Below are positions 41,049 to 59,427 of a DNA stretch of 64,000 nt, piece after piece. Position numbers and translations under genes: made by a program. The notes under the pieces are model-generated. The model made no database searches. It was given only the letters and a program-made list of their open reading frames with translations, and had not been told where the DNA came from. Each line of letters opens with the position of its first letter. Position 1 is the stretch's first letter. This stretch comes from an uncultured Kordiimonas sp. (GTDB lineage: Bacteria; Pseudomonadota; Alphaproteobacteria; Sphingomonadales; Kordiimonadaceae), in NCBI GenBank assembly GCA_947503575.1, contig CANNDZ010000001.1, forward strand, positions 2,170,001-2,234,000, read 5' to 3'.

Positions 41049-42095
41049 TCATGGAGTTGGAAGCTGAGGCGGAGCACTGGAAGCAGGTCTCCATCGGATG
41101 GCTTTGCGCAGCAGATGCGGGAATAACAGATGTATGGGCATACGCAGGTAATGCCCCCGGAGATATAGGAAACCTTTGGCAAATATCGAAAAACGGCCAT
41201 TCACTGTCTTTGAAATTAAGGCGCGCTTTAGCATAATGTTGCGAGATGGATGCATAAGCCAACGAGCCTGTGCCGATGCTTTGGCGTCACCAAATACATT
41301 GCCAATCACCCACAATGCCATAGCAACCGCTTTATCCGCCCCTATTTCTTTCGCACGTTTTCCCAAAAAAGCCTTTTCATCCTCAGACAGATCGTCATAC
41401 AGAAGTTTCAATTCAACCAATGTCCTGGCTGGGACATCCAACTGTCCGTCAAAAAAAGCATGTACTGCAGAATGTGCAAAAATGTCTAACGGTTGGAAAG
41501 TCCACAATTCATGGTCGGAAATTGGCACAGCAGTCTCCAGCATCTTGTCGACATTCACCCTGTAACGCGCCGTTCTTGGCAACAAAGAATGGTGTACATC
41601 AATTACAGTGCCACGGGTTTTGTGCCTTAGAGGCGGCAATTCATGCATATGGTCACGGTAATATTGTTGATCATAGGCATTGTCTGTTTGCTCATCAGGC
41701 ACCCAATTTGCGGCCTTTAACAGATTTTCAGTTCGCGCTAAATCTTGACTTGCCACCAAAATATCAAGGTCGCTTACACGCCGCCCCATGGAGGCTTTAA
41801 ACCCTCTCGCAACATAAGCTCCCCCTTTCAGAATGACGGCTTTTACACCACTGCCTTGCAGCGCTCGACTAACTCTATCCATCTCAAAAAGCAGCATTGT
41901 ATGATCATGCTTCGCCCTTAACTTTGCATTGTTAAAAACATCCTGAACACCGATCATCGACGGCTGATTACAGCAGTGCGCCATTTGCCCCAAAATATGA
42001 TTGGAATCGGCATAATTTATAACACTGATGGCCTCCATCACATCTTGTGGTAACTCGCTTTCACCAACGATGCACCGAAGGACAGTCAACTTCAT
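41049..42095 (-). CDS. Nucleotidyltransferase family protein of the HPr-rel-A-type cassette
   Basis: A 348-residue protein of the family with a putative nucleotidyltransferase fold (NTP_transf_5 type). The core is near residues 90-120: AVILKGGAY then RRVSDLDILV, where the two Asp are likely metal ligands. Further conserved parts are IDVHHSLLP and an all-helical C-terminal half ending in a basic, Pro-rich tail. It overlaps the kinase-like gene by four bases (ATGA). Similar proteins occur with exosortase loci and lasso-peptide-type clusters. Substrate unknown; it might transfer a nucleotide to a peptide, protein or sugar. Confidence 0.75.
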   Translation of the reverse strand: MKLTVLRCIVGESELPQDVMEAISVINYADSNHILGQMAHCCNQPSMIGVQDVFNNAKLRAKHDHTMLLFEMDRVSRALQGSGVKAVILKGGAYVARGFKASMGRRVSDLDILVASQDLARTENLLKAANWVPDEQTDNAYDQQYYRDHMHELPPLRHKTRGTVIDVHHSLLPRTARYRVNVDKMLETAVPISDHELWTFQPLDIFAHSAVHAFFDGQLDVPARTLVELKLLYDDLSEDEKAFLGKRAKEIGADKAVAMALWVIGNVFGDAKASAQARWLMHPSRNIMLKRALISKTVNGRFSIFAKGFLYLRGHYLRMPIHLLFPHLLRKAIRWRPASSAPPQLPTP

Positions 42096-43021
42096 CGCCC
42101 CGCTCCACTGGCTTGTATATCGGCAATCAACTGCAGACTTTGTTCCGTCGTTCCATATGAAAGTTCATAAGCCTTTGCCTGCCGAACCAACTTCAAAACC
42201 GCTCTAAAAGCTGGCTCCCCCAACAAAGAATAGTTTGTTGACGCGGGGATAAGCTTCATCACGGCTTCTGCAGGGTTCAACTTTCGGGCCATGGGAGAAA
42301 CCCCGGCCTCGTAACGGGGAAACAAGATCAGCTTAGCGGCAGCTTTCTTATGCGCTTGCAAAAGGTCGTGTTCTGATACCCGACAATACGCAATATCACC
42401 CTTCGGCGTGCCTGAAAGTGGTGCGCTAATTCGGTCTGCCCCAACAATATCGCGCACTACTGCTATGGAGTCCTGTTTTAGCGAGATTGGCCTTGGGTAT
42501 GGATGCAGCATCGCATCCTCAAGGTCAATCAAGGCAAATTCATCGGAAAATAAACGGTACCCCTGGTCCGCTAACGCAGCCGACAGCGTACTCTTACCCG
42601 AACCGGATGCCGCGCTCATGATAATGGCGCCTTGCTCATTCGCAACGACGCCCGCATGCACCGTTACAAACCGACAACATTTAAGGGCAACGGACAAATT
42701 CATACCCATCTCGAACGCAAGGGGCGCCATCTTGAGAGGTAGCGGAATTGTAGGCACTTCAAAACCAGGGTCCGGCGAGACCTGAGGGCGAATGAACCGA
42801 CGCAAAATATTAGGGGCTTTTAGATTCAGGATAATTTCTGAAACATCAGTTGGTTTAAGTGCGACATCATAATCGCGGTACGTGTCATACAGATAATCAA
42901 GCAGTGGCGCACTAGTGCCCGAAACCAAATGCTTGAAAGGGCCAAGCGTCAGCGTGAACATACCCTTCTTTAGTGCTGAAGCGATATCCCGGCGGTTATG
43001 TTGAGCGAGCTTTACGGTCAT
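42092..43021 (-). CDS. HprK-related kinase A
   Basis: A 309-residue protein with a P-loop of HPr-kinase type, ASGSGKST at residues 138-145, followed by FSDEFALID as the likely Walker B/acidic element. The N-terminal 120 residues form a separate region without the HprK regulatory domain. No phosphotransferase-system genes are nearby, so HPr is an unlikely target. It overlaps both neighbours (PqqD-like upstream, nucleotidyltransferase downstream) as ATGA, showing translational coupling. It may phosphorylate a Ser on a partner protein or peptide, by analogy with kinases of lasso-peptide clusters. Confidence 0.78.
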   Translation of the reverse strand: MTVKLAQHNRRDIASALKKGMFTLTLGPFKHLVSGTSAPLLDYLYDTYRDYDVALKPTDVSEIILNLKAPNILRRFIRPQVSPDPGFEVPTIPLPLKMAPLAFEMGMNLSVALKCCRFVTVHAGVVANEQGAIIMSAASGSGKSTLSAALADQGYRLFSDEFALIDLEDAMLHPYPRPISLKQDSIAVVRDIVGADRISAPLSGTPKGDIAYCRVSEHDLLQAHKKAAAKLILFPRYEAGVSPMARKLNPAEAVMKLIPASTNYSLLGEPAFRAVLKLVRQAKAYELSYGTTEQSLQLIADIQASGAGR

Positions 43022-43323
43022 GATTGAACAACAGGCGTAAGCAAACCTGTTTCGTCCAATTGTTCTATGACAGTAGCAATCAATGATTCGGGTAATTCTG
43101 TTTCAGACAGATCAAACAGGTCTCTCAGAGCTGAAGCCAATTTTTCTTTGCTATGTGGCTGTTCAGAACACTTTGACAGCACTCCAAACGAGAGAAAGTT
43201 TAAAAAGTGGGTTTCCCCAGAGGGGCGAAAGAACACAAGAAATGTGTCATCGAACTCTTCAGACAACCAAAGTGAGGCGTCCGACTTCCAGTGAAACGTT
43301 TCTTTGAGTGGGCCCGCGGCCAT
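43018..43323 (-). CDS. PqqD-like small protein (HPr-rel-A-type system)
   Basis: A 101-residue protein resembling the PqqD/RiPP-recognition fold: strands at the start (SLWLSEEFDDTFLVFF), the LNFLSFGVLSKC segment, and a winged-helix-like end (IATVIEQLDETGLL). PqqD-like domains bind leader peptides and present them to modifying enzymes, so here it may recognise the substrate of the kinase and nucleotidyltransferase. The ATG at 43323 follows GGAAG; an upstream in-frame start is rejected. It lies 42 bases after the Tat-type exported protein gene. Confidence 0.72.
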   Translation of the reverse strand: MAAGPLKETFHWKSDASLWLSEEFDDTFLVFFRPSGETHFLNFLSFGVLSKCSEQPHSKEKLASALRDLFDLSETELPESLIATVIEQLDETGLLTPVVQS

Positions 43324-43365
43324 AGATACTTCCTGTAGCAACTGGAAGGAACAGAAGCGTTAGGT

Positions 43366-44103
43366 TTAACCCAGATAATTAAGGATGGAAACTATACACG
43401 AAATACCTGGCCAGTTACCCTGGTTTCCATACGAATTTGCGTATGTTAACGAGAGTGCAATATACAGCCCTTTTGCGTCGCTTGATGGATCCCAATTAGA
43501 GCCATTCAAATAGTCAGCTGGGGTAATTTCTGTATTTTTGTTGACGGTGTAAAGCGCGTATCCATTGTCCTGATAATCCGGATCACAATCGTCATCGTCG
43601 TCATCACTTCGGCTGCTGTTCACTGCAAAGCTCGCAATTTCGGCCGCGTTAGAAGGCATTGGCGCGTTTAGAAGAGCATCCAGTTCCGAAATCTGATTGC
43701 TGGAATTGTAGCTGTTATCATCGTCATCATCGTCGTCAGGATCACAAATTTCTTCAGGGCATGCTGATGGGCGAAAATCGTTAGGAACTGTGCCTGCCGG
43801 AAAGACATAATTTGCTCTGTCTTTAAACCTGACTATATCAGAAACCTTCCAACCTTTGCCGTTCACGTATCTAACGCGCCGTGTTCCCACCCAGGCGCGA
43901 CCATCACAGTCAACAAGGATACGAACACGTGAAGGAAGCACAAAAGCACATTGAAGCTGAGAAATAACAACTTGTTGTGCCGAAGCTTTCAGCGTCAATA
44001 CCATGGGCAGGCCACCAGCGCCAAGCTTGAGAAGCTGCCGCCTGTCAGATAGGCGTTTCAGGTGTTCGGGTGTGTCTTCGGAGTTCTCTGGCCGTTCAGT
44101 CAC
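43366..44103 (-). CDS. Tat-type exported protein with poly-Asp tracts and six cysteines, unknown function
   Basis: A 245-residue protein that I do not recognise. The N-terminus has a twin-arginine motif (SDRRQLLK, residues 19-26), a hydrophobic stretch, and a likely cleavage after ASA at residue 42. The mature part has Cys at 52, 66, 115, 120, 173 and 236. Two Asp runs lie at 123-129 and 167-172, each touching a CDPD motif. Such acidic clusters suggest calcium binding. Translation starts at GTG. It is the first gene of the cassette with the PqqD-like, kinase-like and nucleotidyltransferase genes and could be their substrate, but no direct evidence shows this. Confidence 0.7.
   Translation of the reverse strand: MTERPENSEDTPEHLKRLSDRRQLLKLGAGGLPMVLTLKASAQQVVISQLQCAFVLPSRVRILVDCDGRAWVGTRRVRYVNGKGWKVSDIVRFKDRANYVFPAGTVPNDFRPSACPEEICDPDDDDDDDNSYNSSNQISELDALLNAPMPSNAAEIASFAVNSSRSDDDDDDCDPDYQDNGYALYTVNKNTEITPADYLNGSNWDPSSDAKGLYIALSLTYANSYGNQGNWPGISCIVSILNYLG
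43588..43605 (-). repeat. GAY trinucleotide run encoding six Asp
   Basis: Alternating GAT/GAC codons encode Asp 167-172 of the Tat-type exported protein. Mixed codons reduce, but do not remove, the chance of replication slippage. Confidence 0.7.
43717..43737 (-). repeat. GAY trinucleotide run encoding seven Asp
   Basis: Encodes Asp 123-129 of the same protein, directly after its CDPD motif. Length could vary between strains by slippage. Confidence 0.7.
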
Positions 44104-44330
44104 GATTTTTCCATAATCAAACGAGCAAACAAAATTAATACTGGCGCCCGTTTCCGGACCAAAGCCCCAACCAGATACGTGTGTATACCCGACAATCGTA
44201 TATTTTTCCTAACAAAATATCAATAACTTCAAGTCAAAACTGTTAATGCGTTTGTAACTTTGCTGCTTTTTACTGATTACCCTTCATGTTAGAGGTTTGA
44301 AGCTGTATCCGGAGCAAAGTAATTAATTCC

Positions 44331-45608
44331 ATGAAATCAAAAAAACTGGAAACAACGGGCATTCAGGCTCTTTTGAGTGAACGTACAATTATTATTGTAC
44401 TATTGGCGCTCCTTGCTTTTTTCTGGTCTATCCAACTGATCGACACTCTCGCCGCCCTGCTTATTTTTGGTACCATTGCGGGACTTCTTGTCCGACTGGA
44501 GTTCAAGCGTCACCGAATGTCGCTACGTATGCGCATTGCCGAGACCAAAAAGCTGGAATTTAACAAAAGGGGCGGCATCAAGTCCGTCAGGGCGAACACT
44601 CTGAACGCAGTACCGTTGCCCATTCTTATTATAGGCGAAGATCATCGTATTTCTTTTGCCAACCATTCGGCCCTTGACCTGCTGGGCTCTGACATTGTGG
44701 GCAATGATGTCTATATTTATTTACGTCAGTCCAAAATTGTTGATGCAATCGAAAAAGTTTTTGAAGACGGTAAAAAGCACGCGGGTGTTGTTAGGTATAC
44801 TAATAAGCAAAAACGAAGCTTTGACGTAACTGTAGCACGCGTTTCTGGTACCGGCGGCGAGGATGTTCCCACTCAGGCGATGGCGTTCTTCTATGAAATT
44901 ACCAGCATGCTGCAAACCGAACAGATGCGTGTGGACTTTGTTGCCAACGCTAGCCATGAACTACGGACGCCGCTTTCGTCCCTGATCGGCTTTATTGAGA
45001 CATTACAGGGTCCAGCTAAAGACGATGTACCAGCCCGTGACAGGTTTCTTGGAATCATGCAGTCTGAAGCCGAGCGCATGGTCCGTCTTATTGATGATCT
45101 CTTGTCCCTGTCAAAAATTGAAATGTCGCGACATCAGGCTCCAGACACACAAGTTAATGTGGAAACCATGGTCCAGAGCGTTGCATTAACTGCTCAATCC
45201 GCAGGTAAAGAACGCGGTATCGACTTTAAAGTAAAAATTGCCAAGGGTGCGACCCGTGTAATTGCCGACCCGGATCAGTTGATGCAGGTACTTTTGAATT
45301 TGGCTGTTAACGCAGCAAAGTATGCGGATCGCGATTCGACGGTCCATATTTCAGCCGATTTGGTCAAAAACAAAAAGCACGTTCAACTGTCCATCCAAGA
45401 TGAAGGCCCCGGCATTTCCAATGAACACCTGGCCCGGTTGACCGAACGATTTTACCGTGTTGACAATGCACGCTCGAGGAAGATGGGGGGAACAGGCCTT
45501 GGTCTGGCAATTGTAAAACACATACTTCTTCGTCACGATAGTGTGCTGGACGTTACAAGTAAGGTGGGCAGCGGCACGACGTTTAGTTTCAAGTTGTTGC
45601 GTGCATAG
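44331..45608 (+). CDS. phoR: Phosphate regulon sensor histidine kinase PhoR
   Basis: A 425-residue inner-membrane sensor kinase. Two close hydrophobic segments lie within residues 15-55, then a PAS domain (about 90-200), a HisKA domain with the phospho-accepting His in NASHELRTPLSSL near residue 208, and a HATPase domain with DEGPGI and GTGLGLAIVK. The domain layout matches PhoR of phosphate starvation. phoB follows after 188 bases, which supports the name. No pst transporter or phoU lies between them. A PHO-box-like stretch upstream is too weak to call. Confidence 0.88.
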   Translation: MKSKKLETTGIQALLSERTIIIVLLALLAFFWSIQLIDTLAALLIFGTIAGLLVRLEFKRHRMSLRMRIAETKKLEFNKRGGIKSVRANTLNAVPLPILIIGEDHRISFANHSALDLLGSDIVGNDVYIYLRQSKIVDAIEKVFEDGKKHAGVVRYTNKQKRSFDVTVARVSGTGGEDVPTQAMAFFYEITSMLQTEQMRVDFVANASHELRTPLSSLIGFIETLQGPAKDDVPARDRFLGIMQSEAERMVRLIDDLLSLSKIEMSRHQAPDTQVNVETMVQSVALTAQSAGKERGIDFKVKIAKGATRVIADPDQLMQVLLNLAVNAAKYADRDSTVHISADLVKNKKHVQLSIQDEGPGISNEHLARLTERFYRVDNARSRKMGGTGLGLAIVKHILLRHDSVLDVTSKVGSGTTFSFKLLRA

Positions 45609-46484: not shown

Positions 46485-48383
46485 TTAAGCTGTCGGAACT
46501 TCTAAATTCAGCTTTTTCATTGTTCTTTCCAGCATGATCAGCGCCCACAAGCTGGTATGATGATCCCGTGAACCGATAACATGCTCTTCGGCCATTTGTT
46601 GAATGCCAAACATGTTGAAAAGACCACTATCGCCAAAGACTTCGCTTTCCCCCAAAGACATCGTATCGTCAGCAAGCTCATTTCGCAGCCAGCTCACTGT
46701 TGGCACATCAAAACCCTTCTTAACGCGATCTAACGTCTCGTCAGGCAGGAAGCCCCTGAGTGCATTCCGAAAGACAGCCTTACCTTCGCCGTCAACAATT
46801 CTCTCGCGCGCAGGAACACGCAGTCCCCACTCCACAAACTTATGATCCAAAATTGGAACCCGAACCTCCAGGCTGTGGGCCATGCTGGCACGATCAACTT
46901 TTGTCAGAATATCACCGCAAAGGTAGGTTTTAAGGTCGATATATTGGATTACAGACAAAGGGTCAGCACCCTTCACTTCATCTGCAAGTTCAGTAAACCT
47001 GTCGTGCGGGTGATAGCCCGCTAGTAATTTTCTCATACGACGTGAATGCCACCGTTTGCGATCTCGGTCGGGCGTGCGGCTGACGCTCTGGCAATATGCT
47101 TGGGCTGATGATCGGGCAAGTGCCTCGAACGTAGATTTAGCCCTAAGAACCTGAGGCGCTCTGTCCAGCTTGGGATATAGCACACTTAAAGGACCAAAAA
47201 GGGCTCTCCGCATAACCATAGGCATCATGCCCCGAAGAGATTCTTCTGCCATATGAAAGCGATGTCGCCTGTAACCAGCAAATAGCTCGTCTCCTCCGTC
47301 CCCCGACAGAGCGACTTTCACTTTCTCTCGGGCCAGGCCACACACCCGATATGTAGGCAGTGCCGACGGGTCGGCAAAAGGTTCGTCATAGACGTCAACC
47401 AAGCGGTCAATAAGCGACCGATCTGTTGCAGAAACCAACCGCCAGCGATGACTTGTTTTGAAATGATCTGCAACAATTTGCGCATACCCACTTTCATCAT
47501 ACGCTGGATCCTCAGATCCTATGGCACAGGTTTCAACGGGGGATGTACCCAATTTGGACATCAATCCGACGACAGCACTGGAGTCTACGCCGCCCGATAA
47601 AAAGGCGCCGAGCGGCACGTCGGCAATCATTCGCATCTTTACGGCGTCCTCGAGCCTCGCCAGCAGGTCTTCGTTTCGAGAAACTGTTAGGCCGGCAATA
47701 CCAATTCCTGGTTGCCAGTAGCGGGTCATACGCGGTGTTTTCTGACCTTTCTCCAAGGTCATCGTAGTGGCAGGTTCTAGCTTTAATACGCCATCAATAA
47801 TGGACTTCGGATCAGGCACATATCCCAAGGTAAGATAGTCTTCCAGCGCATCAATTCGTAACTTTCGCGGCAAATTTGGGACTGCAAGCAGAGCTTTCAT
47901 TTCGGACGCAAAGTAGAAATCGCCGTTTGGCAGAAAAACATAGTGAAGCGGCTTAATGCCCAACCGATCCCTAGCCAGAAACAACTTGTTTTTAGGCCCA
48001 TCCCAGATAGCAAACGCAAACATACCGCGAAGCCGTTCTACACAGGCTTCGCCCCACTCCGCATAGCTTGTCATAAGGACTTCGGTATCGGATTGAGTGT
48101 AAAACTTGTGTCCCAACCCTTCCAGCTCGCGCCGCAATGACTGAAAATTATATATCTCGCCGTTGTAGGAGAGCACAAATTCCTTGCCTGGGCTGTACAT
48201 CGGCTGTTGGCCACCAGCGATGTCAATGATGGATAGTCGCTTGTGACCAAGAGCCACATCGCCACCAAAAAAATACCCCTCGCCGTCAGGTCCTCGATGA
48301 TTGATTGCGTCCGTCATCTTGCGTATGACAGCCTCATCAATCCCAGACCCGTTGTGCGTCATACAACCTGTTATTCCGCACAT
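46485..48383 (-). CDS. XrtA/PEP-CTERM system amidotransferase (asparagine synthetase-like)
   Basis: A 632-residue protein with an N-terminal Ntn glutaminase domain (Cys2 in MCGITG, NHRGPDG) and a C-terminal asparagine-synthetase domain with the ATP-pyrophosphate loop LSGGVDSSA near residue 265. The family form found beside exosortase A is thought to act in polysaccharide assembly, probably amidating an acidic sugar or similar group, rather than making free asparagine. It overlaps the end of xrtA by 13 bases and is the last gene of the long XrtA locus. Confidence 0.9.
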   Translation of the reverse strand: MCGITGCMTHNGSGIDEAVIRKMTDAINHRGPDGEGYFFGGDVALGHKRLSIIDIAGGQQPMYSPGKEFVLSYNGEIYNFQSLRRELEGLGHKFYTQSDTEVLMTSYAEWGEACVERLRGMFAFAIWDGPKNKLFLARDRLGIKPLHYVFLPNGDFYFASEMKALLAVPNLPRKLRIDALEDYLTLGYVPDPKSIIDGVLKLEPATTMTLEKGQKTPRMTRYWQPGIGIAGLTVSRNEDLLARLEDAVKMRMIADVPLGAFLSGGVDSSAVVGLMSKLGTSPVETCAIGSEDPAYDESGYAQIVADHFKTSHRWRLVSATDRSLIDRLVDVYDEPFADPSALPTYRVCGLAREKVKVALSGDGGDELFAGYRRHRFHMAEESLRGMMPMVMRRALFGPLSVLYPKLDRAPQVLRAKSTFEALARSSAQAYCQSVSRTPDRDRKRWHSRRMRKLLAGYHPHDRFTELADEVKGADPLSVIQYIDLKTYLCGDILTKVDRASMAHSLEVRVPILDHKFVEWGLRVPARERIVDGEGKAVFRNALRGFLPDETLDRVKKGFDVPTVSWLRNELADDTMSLGESEVFGDSGLFNMFGIQQMAEEHVIGSRDHHTSLWALIMLERTMKKLNLEVPTA

Positions 48384-49912
48384 ATAGCACCGTCCTTTTT
48401 AACAGGACCCCCATTTATGGTTAAATAGCTATCCAGCGGAAAAGTCGATACAAATTGTGAAAATATTTTCCGTACCGTTTCTTTTTCAGTCACCAATGGC
48501 GCACTTAATACAATGATATAGCCGTCTATTTCGTCCTTAAAAAGACTTTGCCGGGCGGTCGATATCTTCTCCTCTACACCATTGAACACAGTGTCTTTGC
48601 CTGCAAAATATGTGGACCAGGTCATCATGCTGTCCGCGCCACGCACAAAGACACTTTCCTGAAATGGAATAGAGCAGGTTTCAGTTTCGGTGATACTCCG
48701 GTCTACAAGGCGCCATTCTCCATTAACCAGACCATTGCCCGGTTGGAATATCCGCCGACCCGAAGATAAATCCTCTACTTGAGCTGTATATGCGTAAAAA
48801 ACTGATCCGTTTTTCCGCAGGAGCGACCCTTTTTGTCCGGTTGCAGAACGGAACTTTGGGCGCACCACTAGGCCGGTATCATTAAGCACTCTGTAGCCTT
48901 TCATATCTCCAGCAATAAGCGGTTCGAGTACTGTCTGACGTTGTAAGGATTCTTCAATGTTCACTTGGGTATTCGGAGCCAAAGCCAACCCTGCCAACGG
49001 AAGGCTTATCATGGCGATTGGAAGCCAAAGGCGTGGTTTGGTCATTTCGCTACGGCTGCTATTACTCAGTGTTACGGGGGCGTGATCGCTCGACAACGGT
49101 TTGTCAGAAAACCTGTAAGCTGTGGTTATCAGCAAAAGAAGGACAAATGATAGAAACACCCACCCGTAAACCAGGTGGTCAAACCCCTTAGCGAGCTTCT
49201 GGTCAGAGAGTTCAGCAATGAGAAGAATAAGCAAAACCCGCAATGCGTTAGCAATAATGGGCAACCCAATACTGAACAACACAAGAACAATTCTACTACG
49301 CCAGTTTTCGAAAACCAGATGAGCCAGCAGCACACCGGTAAAGAAACTGGTAAATAAGAATTTGACCCCGGCACATGCCTCTGCAACTTCATACAAGCCG
49401 CTGGGCAAAGAAATCAGCATGCCTTGCGATGTATAGTCAGCCCCGATGATATCGAGCACCTGCACAACAATACCGGCTGTCATAACCTGTAACGGGTAAA
49501 CCAGTTCATAACCAAACGGGACCATAAAAAAGAGCAAAAGCATTGGGAAAAGAACAGCCTGATATGCCCTTAGACCTAACATTCCAATTACGATAGCCTG
49601 TATAGCAGTAACGAGCCCGAAATGGCTTAACAGCGCAACATCAAACAGCTTGCCTCCAATCCAAAAAAAACAGGCCGCTAATAGGATGAGCAAACCGAAC
49701 CCGGAAAAGGTTAACGGCACCTGGTCAAACTGCTTGCGTCGTGACCAAATTAATGCCGCGCTAACAAATGGCGCTAGAAGCCCATGGGCAAATACATCAA
49801 CCGACCATAGGATTCCCATCATATGCACAAGGGTGGCGTTCCAGGCACTTAGTAAAACTAAAAGCCCAGTTGCCACGCAAGCATAGTGAATGTGACGATG
49901 TTCAATAGTCAT
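48371..49912 (-). CDS. xrtA: Exosortase A with fused EpsI domain
   Basis: A 513-residue transpeptidase of the inner membrane. The first about 265 residues contain some eight membrane segments and the exosortase catalytic residues: Cys180 in EACAGVKFL, Arg225 in ANALRVLLI and His246 in FDHLVYGW. After a further membrane segment near residue 295, the rest is a periplasmic EpsI-type domain (WSTYFAG and similar), a fusion common in class A. It is predicted to cleave PEP-CTERM signals and join the proteins to an exopolysaccharide-linked carrier. Its ATG overlaps the upstream glycosyltransferase stop. Confidence 0.94.
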   Translation of the reverse strand: MTIEHRHIHYACVATGLLVLLSAWNATLVHMMGILWSVDVFAHGLLAPFVSAALIWSRRKQFDQVPLTFSGFGLLILLAACFFWIGGKLFDVALLSHFGLVTAIQAIVIGMLGLRAYQAVLFPMLLLFFMVPFGYELVYPLQVMTAGIVVQVLDIIGADYTSQGMLISLPSGLYEVAEACAGVKFLFTSFFTGVLLAHLVFENWRSRIVLVLFSIGLPIIANALRVLLILLIAELSDQKLAKGFDHLVYGWVFLSFVLLLLITTAYRFSDKPLSSDHAPVTLSNSSRSEMTKPRLWLPIAMISLPLAGLALAPNTQVNIEESLQRQTVLEPLIAGDMKGYRVLNDTGLVVRPKFRSATGQKGSLLRKNGSVFYAYTAQVEDLSSGRRIFQPGNGLVNGEWRLVDRSITETETCSIPFQESVFVRGADSMMTWSTYFAGKDTVFNGVEEKISTARQSLFKDEIDGYIIVLSAPLVTEKETVRKIFSQFVSTFPLDSYLTINGGPVKKDGAICAE

Positions 49913-51138
49913 GATGCACTTGTCTGTGTCTCGGCATCCAATGTACGGGCAATGTAATCATCGAGTTTTTGAAACGCACTCTGCCAAGAAAAATGCCGTG
50001 CCACAAAGTTTCGTGCTTCCAGCCCCATGGCGCGTCTGCGTTGTTCAGAATATAAAAGACCTTCAATTACTGAAACAAAAGCATCTGACGTTTCCGCCAA
50101 AGCGATCGCTGTGCTATCGGGGGCGCCTATGCCTTCGTTGGCTGCACCCGTGCAGACAACGGGTTTGGCCATTGCCATGCCTTCCAGCACTTTATTTTGG
50201 ATGCCGCGAGCCGTTTTCAAAGGAGCGACAACAATTTCAGCCTTGGCGATTTCTGCGGCCATATCATTTACGCCGCCCAGCACCCGCACGCCTGGTAAGT
50301 TAGCGAGTCGCTCGACAACGGGTGAAACAGGTCTCCCGGCGATATGAAATTCTATATCGTTGTCGCGTTGTCTTAAGCTGCTAAGCACCTCTTTTACAAA
50401 CCATACAACTGCTTCAACATTTGGGGCATAGTCCATTGCGCCGGTGAAAATGATGCGCTTCGCTATTGGCGTATCACAGTGTTTTTCAGGTGAAAAAACA
50501 TCAATGTCCACGCCATTTTCGATGCCCTCGACTGGCACCAAAATGCCATGGTCACTAAGGCTCTTGCGCATAAATTCTGCTTCGTCCTTACTCACCACCA
50601 TAGACGCAGCACTCTCATGTGCGACTAACGCTTCAAATTTCGCGAGAGTTTCAGCTTCTCGACGGTAAAGCCACGACATCAGAAATGACGCAGTATTTGA
50701 ATAGGCTCGCCATTTAGCGGAATCAACATCAACGAAGTCCGTCAAAATTGGGGTACCCGATCTGTCAAACGGCAAAAAGGTAAAGCTGGCTGCCGAATAT
50801 AAGAAAATCAGATCGACTTCATATTCGTTGAGCAAAGCAGCAATTTTTCTCCGAAACACCCTCGAGGGGTATGCATTCTCGGTCAATGACCCTCCATTTA
50901 AAAAGCCAGAGAGCGAGGACAGTTTTTGCTTGAACGGCGTTGCAAAAGAATACTCAACGCTTTCACATAATGTTTGCAGGTAGCCGACGTGCTGAAGGTC
51001 CTGTTCATCATCGACAAAAAAGCCTGCATGAACTTTATGATACTCACACAAGTGTTTTAGAAAATGCCATGACCGGATTTTGTCGCCTTTATTCGGCGGG
51101 AACGGAATTCGGTGGGCCAAAAATAAAATGCGCGCCAT
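49909..51138 (-). CDS. XrtA-associated glycosyltransferase (GT4 family)
   Basis: A 409-residue GT-B-fold glycosyltransferase. The N-terminal FLAHRIPFPPNKGDKIRSW block marks the exosortase-associated subfamily. The C-terminal donor domain has FTGAMDYAPNVEA and the PLKTARGIQNKVLEGMAMAKP block, with the conserved Glu. It probably adds a hexose to the lipid-linked precursor on the cytoplasmic side. It lies between femAB-like and xrtA, with a four-base overlap into xrtA. Confidence 0.88.
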   Translation of the reverse strand: MARILFLAHRIPFPPNKGDKIRSWHFLKHLCEYHKVHAGFFVDDEQDLQHVGYLQTLCESVEYSFATPFKQKLSSLSGFLNGGSLTENAYPSRVFRRKIAALLNEYEVDLIFLYSAASFTFLPFDRSGTPILTDFVDVDSAKWRAYSNTASFLMSWLYRREAETLAKFEALVAHESAASMVVSKDEAEFMRKSLSDHGILVPVEGIENGVDIDVFSPEKHCDTPIAKRIIFTGAMDYAPNVEAVVWFVKEVLSSLRQRDNDIEFHIAGRPVSPVVERLANLPGVRVLGGVNDMAAEIAKAEIVVAPLKTARGIQNKVLEGMAMAKPVVCTGAANEGIGAPDSTAIALAETSDAFVSVIEGLLYSEQRRRAMGLEARNFVARHFSWQSAFQKLDDYIARTLDAETQTSAS

Positions 51139-51144
51139 ATCATT

Positions 51145-52185
51145 TTATCCCAAATGCCGGGCTAGTGGCGGACCCAATATTTTTGAAACACCCAGAGGCA
51201 ACTTCGTCCAGAGCTTGCTTAGTTTCGAGAAAGGACCTGATTGTTGTGATAGGTTTGGTGGCTCAATTCCCTTTACCGTTCGCACTTGATAACCAAGCAT
51301 TTCGGGTTCGAAGCCCCAGTTTTTCTTAAACTTATATGGACCACTGTCTATTTTACTGCGCCCAAAATCAAAACTTGCGGCCCCCCGTTCCCGTGCAGAC
51401 AACATAAGCTGATAATACATGAAATCATGAGCCCCAAGGGCACGAACTGATTTTGTACCCCCCGCATAATATGGCATTACTATATCATTAAAATAGAAAC
51501 TCATCAGGCTCGCTACAGGCGCTCCGTCACTATCACAAGTTATCTGAATTTGAGCGTCATCCCCGAAAACATCGACCAGTGCCTTGAAGAGTTTTTTGGG
51601 AAACACCGGCGTACCCAGTGACAAAACGCTTTGCGCATACAGGTCATAAAAGACGTTAACGTCACCATTCCAGTCCGTTTTAAGGTTGTTTTTCAAACTT
51701 TTACGAACGACGGCACGTTGCTTTCTGGGGATTGCAAGCAATTGTTTCTCATCATCTTCAGCAAGCGTCCGCCTAAAGGTTGCTGCAGCGCCAATAGTTG
51801 ACCAGTTATCATCATCCTCATGGTGCCTCGTAACACTTCGGTTTTCAAACACAGGCAAACCGAGCTGTTGGGCCATTTGCCACGCATGATCATACAATGC
51901 ATCGGCTACCAAAGGCTCTGAGGATAAAGCCCCTCCATAAACACAAAACATGTTAGAAATCAGTGCTTTGCCAAACAGAAAGTGCTTCTTTACGGTAAGC
52001 GGAAGCGCACCTACAAGTGCACCGTCCTGCTCCGCGACCAAATAAGGGCAGGTTTGCCCTGCTCCGTTTTCTATAACTTGCTTCCAGCCCGCCAAATGGC
52101 AAAAAGTGCCACCTGATGCCCTGCGCACATAACTGTCCCATGCATCAAAATGCTTTGGTTCTAGTTGTGAGATTTTAACCGGCAT
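51145..52185 (-). CDS. FemAB-like XrtA-system-associated protein
   Basis: A 346-residue protein of the FemAB/GNAT-fold superfamily. It has HFDAWDSYVRRASGGTFCHL at the start, IPRKQRAVVRKSL in the middle, and an acetyltransferase-like second half with FDFGRSKIDSGPYKFKKNWG near residue 275. Related proteins transfer acyl or aminoacyl groups; here a role in modifying the exopolysaccharide or its carrier is likely, the donor unknown. It overlaps the deacetylase gene by 11 bases. Confidence 0.87.
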   Translation of the reverse strand: MPVKISQLEPKHFDAWDSYVRRASGGTFCHLAGWKQVIENGAGQTCPYLVAEQDGALVGALPLTVKKHFLFGKALISNMFCVYGGALSSEPLVADALYDHAWQMAQQLGLPVFENRSVTRHHEDDDNWSTIGAAATFRRTLAEDDEKQLLAIPRKQRAVVRKSLKNNLKTDWNGDVNVFYDLYAQSVLSLGTPVFPKKLFKALVDVFGDDAQIQITCDSDGAPVASLMSFYFNDIVMPYYAGGTKSVRALGAHDFMYYQLMLSARERGAASFDFGRSKIDSGPYKFKKNWGFEPEMLGYQVRTVKGIEPPNLSQQSGPFSKLSKLWTKLPLGVSKILGPPLARHLG

Positions 52186-53098
52186 CTATACCACTCACAT
52201 CAAATTCAGCCTTCAGCATGCTATCCAGTCGGCCGTATGAGCCAGATCGCAGCATATGCGACACTTTTGCTGCCATTCTGGATTGGCCTGTATAGTGACG
52301 AAAACGCGATAGTGCGGGCGCGTTTTGAATATATGGCTGATCAGGATCGACCTCCCACGGATGCATATAAAAAATTGTACCGACCCCTGTCTGTCGATAT
52401 GCTTTCTTCATCAACCAGTATGAGAGTTGCAGCGGCAATAGCCTGAAATATCCGCCACCTGACGCAGGCACGGTCCGCGACCCAAACTGTGCGACGGTCA
52501 TCGGAATTTCAATGATACTTTTATTCTTCAGAGGAAAGAATGGAGTCCGGGGCAAACCTTCAGCACCGTAGTGGTCAGTTTTTGCTGGAACAACGCTGGA
52601 CGAATAATAAAAACCTGCCGCGACCAACTGTTCATACAAATGCCAACAGTCTGGTGACATAGAAAAACTGGGGGCACGGTAGCCTTTGACTGCTACACCA
52701 CTAGCGTCCTCTAGCAAAGCCTTGGCTCTGGAAATATCATCTAGGAATTCTTTTGCTGAAAACTCAAATATTCGTCTGTGGTCCATGCCGTGACAACCGA
52801 CCTCATGACCAGCATCGAATATCTGTCGAAGTAAGTTTGGATACCGCTCTGCTACCCATCCAAGACAGAAAAACGTCGCCTTGACATCGGCCTCACACAA
52901 TAGGTGCAGGATTTTTTCTGTCTGAAATTGGACCCTGCTCTCCAGAGAGCTCCAATCTTTCCTATCAAGGGTGTTTTCAAATGCTCCTACCTGGAACCAT
53001 TCTTCAACATCCACTGAGAAGGCGTTTAACGGATCAGTATTGTCTGCTTGCGGCTGATTAGGTACCAGACGAAATTCATCTGGACTGACGACAGGCAT
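52175..53098 (-). CDS. XrtA-system polysaccharide deacetylase
   Basis: A 307-residue NodB-fold deacetylase. The metal/catalytic motifs are visible: FSVDVEEWFQ near residue 27, GCHGMDHRR with two zinc-type His near residue 115, and YRAPSFS near residue 155. The sequence DVEEWF is typical of the exosortase-associated group. It probably removes N-acetyl groups from the growing polysaccharide. It sits three bases after the ATPase gene and overlaps the femAB-like gene. Confidence 0.92.
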   Translation of the reverse strand: MPVVSPDEFRLVPNQPQADNTDPLNAFSVDVEEWFQVGAFENTLDRKDWSSLESRVQFQTEKILHLLCEADVKATFFCLGWVAERYPNLLRQIFDAGHEVGCHGMDHRRIFEFSAKEFLDDISRAKALLEDASGVAVKGYRAPSFSMSPDCWHLYEQLVAAGFYYSSSVVPAKTDHYGAEGLPRTPFFPLKNKSIIEIPMTVAQFGSRTVPASGGGYFRLLPLQLSYWLMKKAYRQTGVGTIFYMHPWEVDPDQPYIQNAPALSRFRHYTGQSRMAAKVSHMLRSGSYGRLDSMLKAEFDVSGIDAG

Positions 53099-53101
53099 AG
53101 C

Positions 53102-54139
53102 CTATTCATCGTCCTTTTTGCTATTACTTGCAAGTTGGGTCATCAACTGTGTCAATTGCTGCAAGGTTTGGTCTTGCGACTTCATCATGTTTTCAAGCTG
53201 ACTTATCCGATTGTCCATTTCTTTAGATTCTTTCGCACCTCTCGGTGCTTCCAATGGAATCGTAGCGTCATTTTGAGAACTTGGTGGCGGCGCAGAAACT
53301 GCTGATGAAACAGGAGTAACAGGACGGGTATCGCTTGTCATATCAGCAACCACAGCGTCGATTGTATCGCCGTCAATAGTATGCAGTTCTTCCAATGACC
53401 CGTAGAGTAACACCCTTGAGCACAGTGTATTCAATCTACGAGGCACTCCAGCCGAGTGATTGAATATCGCTTCTACCGCATCAGCGGTAAAGCAAGGGTC
53501 ATTGTCCCACCCAACAAGGCTGAGCCTATGCTGTATATAATCAGCCAGCTCTTCCTTCTCCATAGGTTCCAGGTGATGCGTTGCAATCACACGCTGGCGA
53601 AGCTGCTCTAGTTCAGGAGCGGCAAATATGCGTTCGCGAAATTCAGGTTGTCCGACCAGAAAGCTTTGGACAAGCGCTCTGTCGCCTTCCTGGAAGTTCG
53701 ACAGCATACGCATTTCTTCAAGCGCTGCGTTGGACAGGTTTTGGGCCTCATCCACAACAAGAAGAGCACGTCGACCACGAGCAAATTGCTCACGCAAGTG
53801 CTTTTCCAAACGCGCCAACAGCTGCCCTTTATCCTCAGCTTGGGCATCCAAGCCAAATGCGGCCACCACACTACGTAGAAGGTCTTCGGCGCTCAACTGT
53901 GTGCTAACGATCATCGCCGCAATGAATTCGTTTCGATCTAATGTATCGAATAAATGACGAACAAGCGTTGTCTTGCCTGTACCGATGTCACCCGTGACAA
54001 TAATAAAGCCCTCACCCTGGTTCAAACCATAGGTAAGATACGCCATCGCCTTTTTATGTGTGCGAGAACTAAAATAAAAGCGTGGGTCCGGCGTTAGCTG
54101 GAATGGGCGCCCCTGGAGATTATAAAAACTTTCGTACAT
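53102..54139 (-). CDS. XrtA-associated AAA ATPase
   Basis: A 345-residue ExeA/GspA-like ATPase. Walker A is GDIGTGKTTL near residue 50, Walker B is LLVVDEAQNL near residue 127, and the N-terminus (MYESFYNLQGRPFQLTPDPRF, given by its ends) is typical of the family. The last about 80 residues are Pro/Ser-rich and then form a coiled coil, ending in an acidic tail. It may energise or organise secretion of the polysaccharide. It follows the outer-membrane protein gene's partner set in the usual exosortase order. Confidence 0.9.
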   Translation of the reverse strand: MYESFYNLQGRPFQLTPDPRFYFSSRTHKKAMAYLTYGLNQGEGFIIVTGDIGTGKTTLVRHLFDTLDRNEFIAAMIVSTQLSAEDLLRSVVAAFGLDAQAEDKGQLLARLEKHLREQFARGRRALLVVDEAQNLSNAALEEMRMLSNFQEGDRALVQSFLVGQPEFRERIFAAPELEQLRQRVIATHHLEPMEKEELADYIQHRLSLVGWDNDPCFTADAVEAIFNHSAGVPRRLNTLCSRVLLYGSLEELHTIDGDTIDAVVADMTSDTRPVTPVSSAVSAPPPSSQNDATIPLEAPRGAKESKEMDNRISQLENMMKSQDQTLQQLTQLMTQLASNSKKDDE

Positions 54140-54145
54140 ATAACG

Positions 54146-55645
54146 CTAGAATGTCCCTCTTACGTAGAACGTAATCGCATTTTCTTTCAGGTCCTCTCCG
54201 TCCTGGTTCGATAACCGGCGGGAGTGATCATAAGAAGCCGCTATACTGAAATATCTTGATACCCTTCTAGTCCAGGTCAAGTTACCCACAACAAATTCAT
54301 CTACTCTCACCCCATCTTCAAATAAACTTTGACGGAAGCTAAGTCGAGCATTTAGTGACGTTTTTTCGTTAATTTCGTGATCGATACCGGTTGTCACACC
54401 CCAAGCTCGGCCTGTGCCGGAGTCATCATCGAAAGTACGCCACTCGTAATTTCCGCTAATATAGCTTCTTGTCCTCTTTTGCTGAAGCGTCAGTGTACCA
54501 ACAGCAGACCGTTGACGGAAATCCACATCCGAGAACGAAAAAATCGGGTCAGTCTCGTCAATCGGTAGATTTTCAGTATTTACAATGCCAAATTCATCGT
54601 TGAATGAAAGACTGTTAAGATTATCGTTTGAAACAAGTGTGTTAGCAGTAATTCTGTCTGTATAACTTCCGGTAAAGTTTAGCCTTGCAGAGAAAAAATG
54701 TTGAACTGAAGCGTACCAAATATCCCGAGCACCCTGCTTTCCGTATGAAACCGAAAGATCCAATTTGCTACCTGGTGTCCAACGAAAACCACCCTCCCAG
54801 CCAAAGCCATCTTCAGCCAAAATGGCGTTCTGGAAGTCATTATTTGTTACGTTCAGATTACCAAAGAACTGCCAAAATCGATTCACTTTGAAAGTAATCT
54901 CGCCGCCAGCTCTCTCATTGCGGAAATCATTGACTTCCAACGAACGGGATACCCTTTGCGTGTCTGCAAACAACCGCCATTGGAAATTCCGGAAGCGGTC
55001 TCCCGAGTCTAGGTTTGCAGCAATTTCATGGCTTGTTGCATCAGAAAAATTAATTGGCAGCGTATCATCGTTAAGGTTATCTGCAGGGCTAAGTTGAAGG
55101 CCAAAACGATACGTAAGCCTGAAATCAGCATAGTCCTTTAGGCCAGTCTTAAATATCCCAGTGCCAGTGTATTCCTGAACCAAACGGCGGTTTTGAGTGC
55201 GGTTTGCTGCACTGCCAGAAATACTCCCGCGTTGATCAATGAATTGCTGACGCAAACTGGCCCGGCCATTTACAGTAAGATGATCTTCCCATACTTCTGC
55301 GTCAAGCGTACCAAACATATTCTGGCGAAAGTCATCAGTGCCATCAGATAAAAAGTAGAAATGATCCAGAGAATAATCCAACGCTACATTCATCCGGTTT
55401 CCAGAAATGCGTGCGTTCATGCCTACGGCATTGTTAAGAACCACATCATATATTCTATCGGTCGGAGACAGGTTGGCGTTATCTGTTCCGGTAATTCTAC
55501 TTTCTACCCTTGGGTCAATATAGATGTGTTGTGCTTGCGCTGTCCCATTGAAAGCAGCTGCGCAAACTGCTCCGCCCAAACCAAGCAAGAGAACTCGATT
55601 CAGACCAACAAAAGATGCTCTGTGTTCCGGAAATGAAAAAACCAC
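54146..55645 (-). CDS. XrtA-associated outer-membrane beta-barrel protein
   Basis: A 499-residue protein with a signal peptide (hydrophobic stretch, cleavage after AQA near residue 38) and alternating amphipathic strands throughout, ending in a terminal aromatic residue (YVRGTF), as expected for a barrel. It matches the outer-membrane protein family that accompanies exosortase A. It may form or support the secretion pore, but its function is not established. It starts at GTG just nine bases after the kinase stop. Confidence 0.85.
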   Translation of the reverse strand: MVFSFPEHRASFVGLNRVLLLGLGGAVCAAAFNGTAQAQHIYIDPRVESRITGTDNANLSPTDRIYDVVLNNAVGMNARISGNRMNVALDYSLDHFYFLSDGTDDFRQNMFGTLDAEVWEDHLTVNGRASLRQQFIDQRGSISGSAANRTQNRRLVQEYTGTGIFKTGLKDYADFRLTYRFGLQLSPADNLNDDTLPINFSDATSHEIAANLDSGDRFRNFQWRLFADTQRVSRSLEVNDFRNERAGGEITFKVNRFWQFFGNLNVTNNDFQNAILAEDGFGWEGGFRWTPGSKLDLSVSYGKQGARDIWYASVQHFFSARLNFTGSYTDRITANTLVSNDNLNSLSFNDEFGIVNTENLPIDETDPIFSFSDVDFRQRSAVGTLTLQQKRTRSYISGNYEWRTFDDDSGTGRAWGVTTGIDHEINEKTSLNARLSFRQSLFEDGVRVDEFVVGNLTWTRRVSRYFSIAASYDHSRRLSNQDGEDLKENAITFYVRGTF

Positions 55646-55653
55646 CTGTAAAT

Positions 55654-56754
55654 CTACCGGCCGCCATAACCGTAGTAGGTAGCAAACTTCTTGTTACTGC
55701 CATTGTAACGGGTTTTATTGAGAAGCAGATTAATATTCTCGCAAGCACTGATCATGCCCAGGCTTTCTTTGATCTGTGGCTCAGTTGTCTTTTCTGCTTC
55801 GATGACAAAAACTATTTGGCCCATATATAAAGCCAGCACTGACGCTGCCGAACTGGCTAAAACTGGCGGTGAGTCAAAAATGACAATCCTGTCCTTGTAA
55901 CGGCTGGAAATCTCAGTCACCATTTTGGCCATTCGATCACTTGCCAACAGCTCAGTAGTAAGGTTGTGTTGTCGGCCAGCAGGCAACAGCACCAGATTTG
56001 GTATGTTTGTTCGCACCAAACATTCACCGACGTCCATATTACCGTCAGCGACGACATCCATCAGTCCTCGTCCCCCTTTCACCCCCAACCGATTGAGAAT
56101 TTCAGGTTTAGAGAAGTCCGCATCTACAAGTAAAACCGTTACGTCCTGCTCTGTCGCGATCGACAATGCTAAGTTGATGGTACAAAAAGTCTTTCCCTCA
56201 CTGGGGTTGGAGCTAGTAACCAAAATAACATTGTCATTCTGCTCGCCACCACCGCCTTTTGGAAACGCATTCAAAAGCAGAGACCGTTTGATAATTCTAA
56301 ACTCCTCAGACATGAGGTTTGGCGGCATATCTGGCGTTATGTAGCCAGCTTCTCGCAAGGCTGCCAGGTCAATCTCTTCTGGTTCCCGCCTTTTGCGTGC
56401 AGGCTTATCAGTCTTAGACTTACCAAGTGGTACAGTATCCCCAATTGCCAACGATCTGGGCTGCGACGCATCAACATCGGGTGCAGTATCCTCATTAGCA
56501 GCCTTTGGTTTTTGCTTGGGCTTTGCCCCAGGCGAACCGATGCCCTTGAAAGACACACTAGCTGTGTCTTCTTCCGTCATTGCCGGATTTAGCGAAGATG
56601 GGTCAGGCTTACGCTTGTCCGGTGAACCAATACCACCTGAAGCGGACCGCTCAAAAGGGCTATCGCCAGCACTTTTGGCGGCTCGTTCTACAAGTGAACT
56701 GCCCTTCTCATCTTTCTTCTTGGCATTTTTAGCCGCGCGTTCAATCAGGTCCAT
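55654..56754 (-). CDS. XrtA-associated tyrosine autokinase (CpsD/Wzc-cytoplasmic type)
   Basis: A 366-residue BY-kinase. Residues 1-135 are charged and low-complexity with repeated short IGSPDK/GIGSP elements. The kinase part has Walker A in SSNPSEGKTF near residue 182 and Walker A' VLLVDADF. The C-terminus ends in a short Tyr cluster (YYGYGGR), the usual autophosphorylation tail. With the separate chain-length protein it should regulate polymer length through phosphorylation. It lies 38 bases after that gene. Confidence 0.9.
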   Translation of the reverse strand: MDLIERAAKNAKKKDEKGSSLVERAAKSAGDSPFERSASGGIGSPDKRKPDPSSLNPAMTEEDTASVSFKGIGSPGAKPKQKPKAANEDTAPDVDASQPRSLAIGDTVPLGKSKTDKPARKRREPEEIDLAALREAGYITPDMPPNLMSEEFRIIKRSLLLNAFPKGGGGEQNDNVILVTSSNPSEGKTFCTINLALSIATEQDVTVLLVDADFSKPEILNRLGVKGGRGLMDVVADGNMDVGECLVRTNIPNLVLLPAGRQHNLTTELLASDRMAKMVTEISSRYKDRIVIFDSPPVLASSAASVLALYMGQIVFVIEAEKTTEPQIKESLGMISACENINLLLNKTRYNGSNKKFATYYGYGGR

Positions 56755-56792
56755 GTTAGAAAACTCATCCAGAGCGTAACAAGACGCTCAGT

Positions 56793-58415
56793 TTAACCGG
56801 GCCCCCCAATCATATCGAAGACGACGAAACCAGCAAAAACCAAAAACAGCAAGGCTGTTGCCCCGGCAAACATAAGCAACTCAATGCTCCGTTGCCTTGT
56901 TTCTTCCTCCGACAGCGAGCGTGAAACGTTTCCAAGTATATTCAAATCAAACTGCGAGCGCAGCTGCTCTACAGTCAAAACAACAGGCCGCAACACCGAA
57001 AGAACCAAGGCAAAGCCAACGCCCGCCATCAAAGCGAAAACCAACATCCCGCCCATAAACAGAAGGCGATTGGGACCGCTCGGCTTCGTTGCCAAGCTCG
57101 GCTGCTCAATAACGCGAAGACTGACCGCACCATCTGCGTTTTCGACATCTGCCTGCAGATTCAGGTCCTGTTTACGATCCAACAGATCATTGTAGAAACT
57201 CCGCAACTGAGAAAAGTCGCGCTGTAGCTGGCTTTCTCTAGCTTGAATCTCAGGAACTCGCTTGGCCTTCTCCTCAAGCTCTGCAACGAGTTTTTGCTGC
57301 TCGACCTCTCGCTGCTCAAATGTCTTTATTTGCGTTCTGGTATCAATAATGTTGAACATCAACTGCTCGTACAGTCGGTTCGGCGTTTCGGTTGTATAAT
57401 TTGACTTTTTACCCGCTTCCGCGCTGTCAGAGAGTTCCTGAGCAATGGCTGCCTGCTCTTGCTTCATTTCCTCTTTAAGAAGTTCCAATTGCCTTGAAAC
57501 ATTGCGAACATCTGGATGCAGATCTTTGTAACCAAGGTTACGCAGGTTATCGAGTTTCTTTTGCTGCTCATTTATGCGCTCCTGGAGTGGGTCATCTGAC
57601 ACTGCACCACGACTTCTTGAAGACTTGGCCTCACGGATAGTTGCAGGAACATTTTGTATCTGCTCCTGCAATGTATCCAAGGCGACCCTGAATTCGCCAA
57701 GCTTATTACGTGTATCACGCAATTCTTCTTTCGCAGCGTCGCGGCGTGATAAAAACGCCCCTTCGCCACCGAGAAAGTCAATGTTTTCCTGCTTAAACTG
57801 AGCATGAAGTTGCTCTGCCGCACTTAAACGCTCTTCATAATCCTTGATTTGCTGATCCAGAAACTCAACAGCGTTCTCGCTGCCACCGTCACCACCATCC
57901 GAACCGCCTTCAAGAAAAATAGACAGTAGGTTATTCACAACATTGCGCGCGACCTCGGCCCGCTGCCTGTCGCTTAATCTACCATTACCATTTTCGTATT
58001 CTATGCTGTACCTGTTGCCTTGAAGTGCGACAATGCGAATATCGTCCTGCATATCAGCAACCAGTTGGTTCAGAGCAGCATCATTGTTTGCCAAACGCTC
58101 AAGATATTCAGATCGCCGGATAATTTTTTCGAGATTTGGGCGAGTAACCAGTTGGTTTTTCACCGCTTCGATACGCTTTGAGACGTCAATATCGATATTG
58201 AACCCGCGTACGATCGAGGGAAGGATAGTTTCTGTATTTACATAAATTTGAGCACTTGATTCGTAGCGGTATGGCATTGTGGACACTGCACCCCAACCAA
58301 CCAAACATATCAACCATGTCGTTGCCATCATGTACCAGCGTTTTCGCCAGATACCATAGGCAACAGACTTAACCTGTTGGTAGACCTCGTGTAATCCAAA
58401 ATTTGCAGACGCCAT
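56793..58415 (-). CDS. XrtA-system polysaccharide chain-length determinant (Wzz/PCP type)
   Basis: A 540-residue inner-membrane polysaccharide co-polymerase. An N-terminal membrane segment near residues 28-48 carries the WW/PYRYESSAQIYV boundary. A long periplasmic coiled coil covers about 180-430, and membrane segments follow near 455-475 and 515-535. It has no kinase domain, which is supplied by the next gene. Its likely role is to set chain length and couple polymerisation to the export lipoprotein. Confidence 0.92.
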   Translation of the reverse strand: MASANFGLHEVYQQVKSVAYGIWRKRWYMMATTWLICLVGWGAVSTMPYRYESSAQIYVNTETILPSIVRGFNIDIDVSKRIEAVKNQLVTRPNLEKIIRRSEYLERLANNDAALNQLVADMQDDIRIVALQGNRYSIEYENGNGRLSDRQRAEVARNVVNNLLSIFLEGGSDGGDGGSENAVEFLDQQIKDYEERLSAAEQLHAQFKQENIDFLGGEGAFLSRRDAAKEELRDTRNKLGEFRVALDTLQEQIQNVPATIREAKSSRSRGAVSDDPLQERINEQQKKLDNLRNLGYKDLHPDVRNVSRQLELLKEEMKQEQAAIAQELSDSAEAGKKSNYTTETPNRLYEQLMFNIIDTRTQIKTFEQREVEQQKLVAELEEKAKRVPEIQARESQLQRDFSQLRSFYNDLLDRKQDLNLQADVENADGAVSLRVIEQPSLATKPSGPNRLLFMGGMLVFALMAGVGFALVLSVLRPVVLTVEQLRSQFDLNILGNVSRSLSEEETRQRSIELLMFAGATALLFLVFAGFVVFDMIGGPG

Positions 58416-58461
58416 TTCTACTCTCCACCGTCACATTCCGTAATCGAAATGGTAAAACGGC

Positions 58462-59097
58462 CTACAAGAAACTCTCCGGTATGATTAAAACATCACCGGG
58501 AAGTATTTTTACATTTGCATTAATATCGCCGTCTTTGATCAAACTTTCAATCTTAAGGCGGTATTCCTTCTGCTCACCATCTTCAAATCGCACCAAAGTA
58601 GCGCGGTCCCCTGCTGCAAATTCAGTCAGGCCTCCGACCTGGATCATAACGTCAAGTAACGTCATGTTCGCCCGGTAAGGAATCGCTTGCGGCGTGCCTG
58701 CTTCACCCAGCACACGAACTTGTTGTGAAAATGGACCATTAAAGCCATTTACCACAACAGTGACGATAGGCTGCTGAATATAGACGCCTAATTCTTCTTC
58801 GATATCTCTTGCCAGGTCACTGGGCGTTTTACCCGTCGCCGGAAGATCGTCGATCAATGGCATAGACAACCTGCCGTCAGGACGCACTGTCACGCCAACG
58901 GTTAATTCGGGGTTACGCCAAACAAAAACATTCAGCCCGTCTAACGGGCCAATCAAGTAGCTGGGGCCGGGCCCCTCATCTGGCGGCACAAAAGGCGCCG
59001 GAGGTAAAGATTCATGTATCCTTAATAAGTCACAACCCGCTAAACCAACGCCCAAAAATACGCAGGTAAGGATACGAATACAAAGTTTGCGCGTCAT
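58462..59097 (-). CDS. XrtA-system polysaccharide export lipoprotein (Wza-like)
   Basis: A 211-residue outer-membrane lipoprotein with lipobox LAGC near residue 22. A poly-export (PES) domain follows (YLIGPLDGLNVFVWRNPELT in the usual place), then a SLBB-like domain (VRVLGEAGTPQAIPY) and an end VLIIPESFL. It probably forms part of the export channel with the co-polymerase. The 131 bases upstream could hold the promoter of the downstream part of the locus; only an isolated TATAAC element stands out. Confidence 0.92.
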   Translation of the reverse strand: MTRKLCIRILTCVFLGVGLAGCDLLRIHESLPPAPFVPPDEGPGPSYLIGPLDGLNVFVWRNPELTVGVTVRPDGRLSMPLIDDLPATGKTPSDLARDIEEELGVYIQQPIVTVVVNGFNGPFSQQVRVLGEAGTPQAIPYRANMTLLDVMIQVGGLTEFAAGDRATLVRFEDGEQKEYRLKIESLIKDGDINANVKILPGDVLIIPESFL

Positions 59098-59228
59098 AAA
59101 GCGTCACTCATATAAAAACCGCGACCCCCACGCGCTCTTTCCAAAGTACCATAGCTGTGTGTTATATGGTCACTTTTTACTCTGAAAATCAAGCAGTAAC
59201 AGGTCGCCAGGGAAAATTAAGGCAATAA

Positions 59229-59423: not shown

Positions 59424-59427
59424 GACT

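Follow-up and report, generated by a model that had tools for sequence, protein, structure and literature searches.

What do the enzymes of an HPr-rel-A gene set act upon? The question is raised by a 64,000-nucleotide stretch of DNA from an uncultured Kordiimonas sp. (contig CANNDZ010000001.1, positions 2,170,001 to 2,234,000; the whole stretch is called the window hereafter), in which genes for a PqqD-like protein, an HPr-kinase-like protein and a nucleotidyltransferase follow directly on the gene of a small protein with a twin-arginine (RR) signal. The HPr-rel-A set carries its name in a protein-family database; in the open-licence literature we found no paper on it and no stated substrate for it, and two RRE-mining papers contain none of six terms looked up in them, which included kinase, HPr and exosortase. 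We find that the exported protein accompanies the kinase almost without exception and that it is likely the hitherto unrecognised target of the set.

The four genes lie on the minus strand in the 5′ to 3′ order exported protein, PqqD-like protein, kinase and nucleotidyltransferase (window positions 41049-44103):

43366..44103, minus strand: gene of the exported protein (245 residues, GTG start), with RR signal, Cys52, Asp-rich linker and the C-terminal motif G-I-S-C236-I-V-S239
43018..43323, minus strand: pqqD-like gene (PqqD_rel_X, TIGR04353; 50.5 bits, cut-off 35)
43018..43021, minus strand: ATGA overlap of the pqqD and kinase genes, read on the coding strand
42092..43021, minus strand: kinase gene (HprK_rel_A, TIGR04352; 244.6 bits, cut-off 200)
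42092..42095, minus strand: ATGA overlap of the kinase and nucleotidyltransferase genes, read on the coding strand
41049..42095, minus strand: nucleotidyltransferase gene (NTP_transf_5, PF14907; 127.3 bits, cut-off 31.2), with the KGG...DLD active-site pattern

The open reading frames (ORFs) of the window confirm the original prediction of four densely packed genes on one strand, three of them joined by two ATGA overlaps, and the predicted PqqD-like, HprK-like and nucleotidyltransferase identities stand as well, since TIGR04353, TIGR04352 and PF14907 are all matched over their cut-offs. The pqqD-like ORF as listed spans 43018-43341 with a TTG start at 43341; judged from the sequence the ATG at 43323, which has AGGAAG in front of it, is the likelier start. 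Besides this protein the window genome contains no further match to TIGR04353. The set had also been placed under the HPr-rel-A name used in exosortase genomes, and rightly so: the kinase and PqqD-like models of that system are matched over the curated cut-offs, a nucleotidyltransferase gene adjoins and the genome carries the exosortase XrtA. We take a nucleotidyltransferase gene beside the kinase to be a feature of HPr-rel-A, which in the window is the PF14907 gene with its 4-base overlap, and exosortase A in the genome is presumably another such feature, XrtA being encoded in the window. The difference from HPr-rel-A lies in the exported protein, which no NCBIfam model covers (77 members scanned); its recognition as a near-invariant fourth component of the system is new here.

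The evidence for this component comes from its distribution. The kinase HprK_rel_A is present in 90 of the 196 genomes sampled from the order (88 over the cut-off and two, G090 and G006, just under it). In a whole-genome search the exported-protein profile matched all 90 kinase genomes and only one of the 106 others (G169, a weak match with E = 7e-4). Within the order, the outcome which the original prediction had named as telling against its substrate idea, cassettes without a relative of the exported protein, thus did not appear. The co-occurrence has a Fisher p of 3e-56, uncorrected for kinship, and is more than self-recovery because 11 of the 90 matched genomes had no representative in the search alignment. 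Genomes counted as lacking the kinase (106 in the order sample and 337 in the phylum sample) are those neither over nor just under the cut-off, and many of them have weaker P-loop matches; at E <= 0.001 the kinase model finds matches in 184/196 order and 199/398 phylum genomes. Genera with both states (g26, g29 and g40) agree with the co-occurrence, and some of the genomes without both components are incomplete.

At the level of loci the picture is similar. Stretches of up to 17 kb were taken for 88 of the 90 kinase genomes, leaving aside G000, which is the window itself, and G023, and an iterated profile seeded with the window protein detected relatives in 82 of 89 loci, the window being counted as one of them. 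The seven missed loci are five from one genus (L069, L070, L072, L077, L082), one at a contig end (L080) and one without pqqD nearby (L091); the whole-genome search recovered the exported protein for all seven as well as for G023. The exported gene is unlinked from the cassette in 5 genomes of one genus, and in G053 it lies together with a pqqD (profile E = 6.5e-16) apart from the kinase. Of 79 order loci that were compared, 75 have it within 250 bases of pqqD.

As a control we scanned named genomes and obtained 80 kinase-like loci, 38 of which match the kinase profile at E <= 1e-72. The exported protein is found in the stretch in 31 of these 38 HprK_rel_A-like loci and, by profile, in none of the 42 loci of other HprK-like kinases, several of which carry nucleotidyltransferase, PqqD-like or asparagine-synthetase genes. 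Missed among the 38 were L210, which ends with its contig, L214, L216 and L217, where the exported gene is not nearby, and L239 of Methylomonas koyamae R-45383, L241 of a Methyloversatilis metagenome assembly and L242 of Alteromonas sp. KUL49. These last three are named examples from beyond the order, and all of them have an RR protein upstream. Among named relatives, the one closest to the window kinase (L205, 70% identity) belongs to an uncultured Kordiimonas. An asparagine-synthetase-like gene occurs in twelve of the other-kinase loci (L254, L258, L261, L263-L266, L271, L274, L275, L280, L282), which are possibly lasso-type clusters.

The association extends beyond the order. In a phylum sample of 398 genomes the kinase is over the cut-off in 61, of which 48 lie outside the order; none was found in other orders of the same class among the sampled genomes. 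We fetched 40 of the 48 outside loci, and in 36 the cassette has a protein with an RR signal as its neighbour, which in L164 is encoded on the strand opposite the kinase and in L174 is shortened; the remaining four genomes (G217, G263, G275, G318) have the RR protein on another contig. Seven of the eight genomes not fetched have a match to the beta-type profile and the eighth, G379 (57% complete), has none. Altogether the beta-type profile matches 37 of the 48 outside kinase genomes, 15 of these 37 not being represented in the profile, versus 0/337 genomes without the kinase over its cut-off, and in G295, G319 and G371 the match spans little beyond the signal region.

The exported protein itself is poorly conserved, column identity averaging 15% (77 rows), and within the order the length of the precursor ranges from 116 to 298 residues. 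A few positions are nevertheless kept in all 83 aligned order proteins, namely the RR pair, behind which comes a hydrophobic stretch, and two Cys, one early and one C-terminal. The C-terminal Cys is directly preceded by Ser (50 proteins) or Thr (33 proteins), and three residues downstream of it there is always a Ser. The resulting motif [ST]CxxS is present in 86/86 order ORFs and ends a median of 7 residues before the C-terminus. When mature parts were shuffled, it turned up in 189 of 4150 trials. The 83-row alignment was built from profile hits, three of the 86 ORFs (L054, L062, L084) having been dropped by the RR pattern; the ORF of L084 begins downstream of the signal. Outside the order the motif occurs in 24 of 26 profile hits not selected for it, L178 and L186 being the misses. 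Alignment A5 was not used as motif evidence because 21 of its 22 rows had entered by a pattern requiring the motif. The original prediction had singled the protein out by its Asp-richness, and here it has to be corrected: a run of at least four Asp is found in only 22 of 83 order relatives, and these runs sit in a linker which is variable in the alignments and of low confidence in the structure model, whereas the RR pair, the Cys residues and [ST]CxxS are conserved. The confidently modelled parts comprise about residues 52-115 and 176-244. No NCBIfam or Pfam family was found for the 77 members scanned, only stray matches and generic Tat-type (twin-arginine translocation) signals, and at E <= 0.01 there was no NCBIfam or Pfam match to a PEP-CTERM sorting domain. 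The window genome also holds an orphan second copy (L189:7303-7923, corresponding to contig 2, 616299-616868, minus strand), which lacks Asp runs, shares the signal type, has the tail GISCIISI and is flanked by unrelated genes.

In both enzymes active-site residues are retained. In the kinase the P-loop, H122, K143, D160 and E161 are invariant in 40/40 aligned relatives, and in the nucleotidyltransferase K90 and G91 are found in 122/122 and D109 and D111 each in 120/122. Lasso kinases are described in passages of PMC9266682 as having a conserved His-Lys-Asp-Asp set; after H122-K143-D160 the cassette kinase has E161 and not Asp in all 40 sequences of an alignment composed of cassette-kinase relatives without lasso kinases.

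The tailoring genes of the lasso peptides paeninodin (PadeK) and pseudomycoidin (PsmK/PsmN) are the closest functional parallel, as they share with the cassette an HprK-like kinase, a nucleotidyltransferase and a PqqD-like protein, and there is in both systems a conserved Ser at or near the C-terminus of the precursor. According to the parts of PMC9266682 and PMC8498205 that deal with these enzymes, PadeK phosphorylates the C-terminal Ser of the precursor and PsmN attaches a hexose to that phosphate, and a passage in PMC8498205 has PqqD-like B1 proteins binding the precursor leader. Lasso systems, however, have a short precursor whereas the cassette has a whole RR-signal protein. The absence of a lasso cyclase and of a leader peptidase, both predicted, is borne out. 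No lasso cyclase is over the cut-off beside the cassette (250.3 vs 525 bits), the nearby asparagine synthetase homologue being the XrtA amidotransferase TIGR03108 (841 vs 816.9 bits). An intact B2 transglutaminase-like protease was not found in the genome, the only PF13471 match (22.6 vs 26 bits) lying on another contig and containing two stops. SynChlorMet, with the HprK-like ScmC and the PqqD-like ScmD, shows weak similarity to the cassette (kinase E 0.035, PqqD-like E 0.0026); with 13.4 bits against 125 and 17.9 against 100, both matches stay far under what the two families require.

On balance it is probable that the cassette serves to produce one small exported protein and to modify it. 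In the sequence of steps that we infer, the PqqD-like protein probably binds the N-terminal twin-arginine region as a leader and presents the precursor, the HprK-related kinase would phosphorylate the precursor at a Ser or Thr, the best candidate being the invariant Ser of [ST]CxxS, and the nucleotidyltransferase would add a nucleotide or a sugar to that phosphate. The modified protein would then be exported by Tat and act at the cell surface, probably together with the XrtA-associated exopolysaccharide. The original prediction of the exported protein as substrate of a modifying system is supported at the level of association, the reaction and the residue being an inference. A more specific version, in which the PqqD-guided enzymes attach a sugar or nucleotide through phosphate to the C-terminal Ser before export and the product anchors or primes the XrtA exopolysaccharide, would amount to a novel type of protein modification system and is a tentative proposal that we regard as rather doubtful in its full form.

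Several observations weigh against this interpretation. In eleven of the 40 outside cassettes the RR protein in place carries a different mature domain and no [ST]CxxS tail. In this second exported-protein class (L149, L151, L152, L165, L177, L182, L184-L188), which has the same cassette position and signal type, the signal is often followed by CSxSG and SPGxW-like motifs, and a scan of 10 of its 11 members (L149 left out) gave no Pfam family; the candidate Ser target is not transferable to it. Likewise, L178 keeps the signal region and is without the tail. These twelve cases leave two possibilities: a different residue is targeted in them, or the target lies outside the tail altogether. Among the 77 members, generic Tat models recognise no more than 2 with NCBIfam and 1 with Pfam (E <= 0.01), and the two conserved Cys could serve merely for a disulfide. 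S239 lies within a confidently predicted C-terminal helix of the structure model, and the kinase might therefore need to act before folding. A second, unlinked exported paralogue exists in the window genome and in seven relatives. Finally, the co-occurrence is also what one would expect of a partner protein which is not a substrate.

The surroundings of the cassette bear on such alternatives:

44104..44330, no strand assigned: intergenic region between the divergent genes of the exported protein and a PhoR-like protein, an arrangement common to most order loci
44331..45608, plus strand: PhoR-like sensor kinase (TIGR02966, 307.5 bits, under the cut-off of 334.2), divergent neighbour, context and candidate part
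46485..63992, minus strand: XrtA exosortase and exopolysaccharide locus (family scan and ORF reading), context

The XrtA locus starts about 2.4 kb away at 46485 and contains exosortase XrtA (250.4 bits, cut-off 208), the amidotransferase TIGR03108 already mentioned and, by family scan, a glycosyltransferase; its remaining ORFs are putative members, placed there by reading. XrtA is over the cut-off in 75 of 90 kinase genomes versus 52 of 106 others (p = 5e-7, kinship ignored), and of the 15 kinase genomes without it 10 still match more weakly and 5 lack any match. Physical linkage is patchy, one or more of eleven marker genes (E <= 1e-30) being found in 23 of 88 order and 27 of 40 outside stretches. 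The PhoR-like gene stands next to the cassette in divergent orientation in 64 of 89 order loci, or 68 if four with overlapping, over-extended ORFs are counted, and a Pho-box scan gave mean best scores of 9.37 vs 8.79 of 14.

The enrichment of XrtA in kinase genomes would also suit an exported protein that is a surface partner or carrier, the enzymes modifying an unseen peptide or an intermediate of a glycan, whose modified form the exported protein would receive, bind or display. The genus whose five genomes have the exported gene elsewhere points in the same direction, as pqqD stays there with the kinase and nucleotidyltransferase genes. The close spacing of the exported gene and pqqD in 75 of 79 order loci and the leader binding reported for B1 PqqD-like proteins in part of PMC8498205 speak against it, and we consider the carrier role improbable, if well worth keeping in mind, since no search aimed at further very short recurring ORFs was made and an unseen peptide stays conceivable. 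Less probable still is a phosphate-responsive module, in which the divergent PhoR-like gene and a PhoB-like neighbour would bring about a phosphate-linked exported protein when phosphate runs short: the adjacency within the order favours it, but the PhoR-like gene occurs in 0/40 outside-order stretches, the Pho-box scan gave no clear signal, and such regulation would be compatible with modification of the exported protein rather than exclude it.

In a further reading the kinase would phosphorylate HPr or control a phosphotransferase system of the nitrogen type, its neighbours being only loosely connected. A P-loop kinase region is indeed common to the cassette kinase and HPr kinase/phosphorylase, and the former is distantly related to the HPr kinase structures 1jb1 and 1ko7 (E about 4e-4 to 5e-4). 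Against the Pfam HPr kinase C-terminal domain it scores, however, only 12.0 bits, below the cut-off of 33.3, and the genome has a separate canonical pair, a Hpr_kinase_C gene and an HPr gene 1.6 kb apart on contig 1 at about 646.5-648.6 kb (L285, L286). We therefore hold a role on HPr to be very unlikely.

Modification of the exported protein remains the reading that we prefer, and an exported partner that is all but obligatory and has an invariant Ser in its C-terminal part makes the question of the substrate directly testable by mass spectrometry. If it is true, the PqqD-guided tailoring by kinase and nucleotidyltransferase which is known from lasso peptides reaches whole exported proteins, and protein modification may be tied to exopolysaccharide assembly in many Pseudomonadota.

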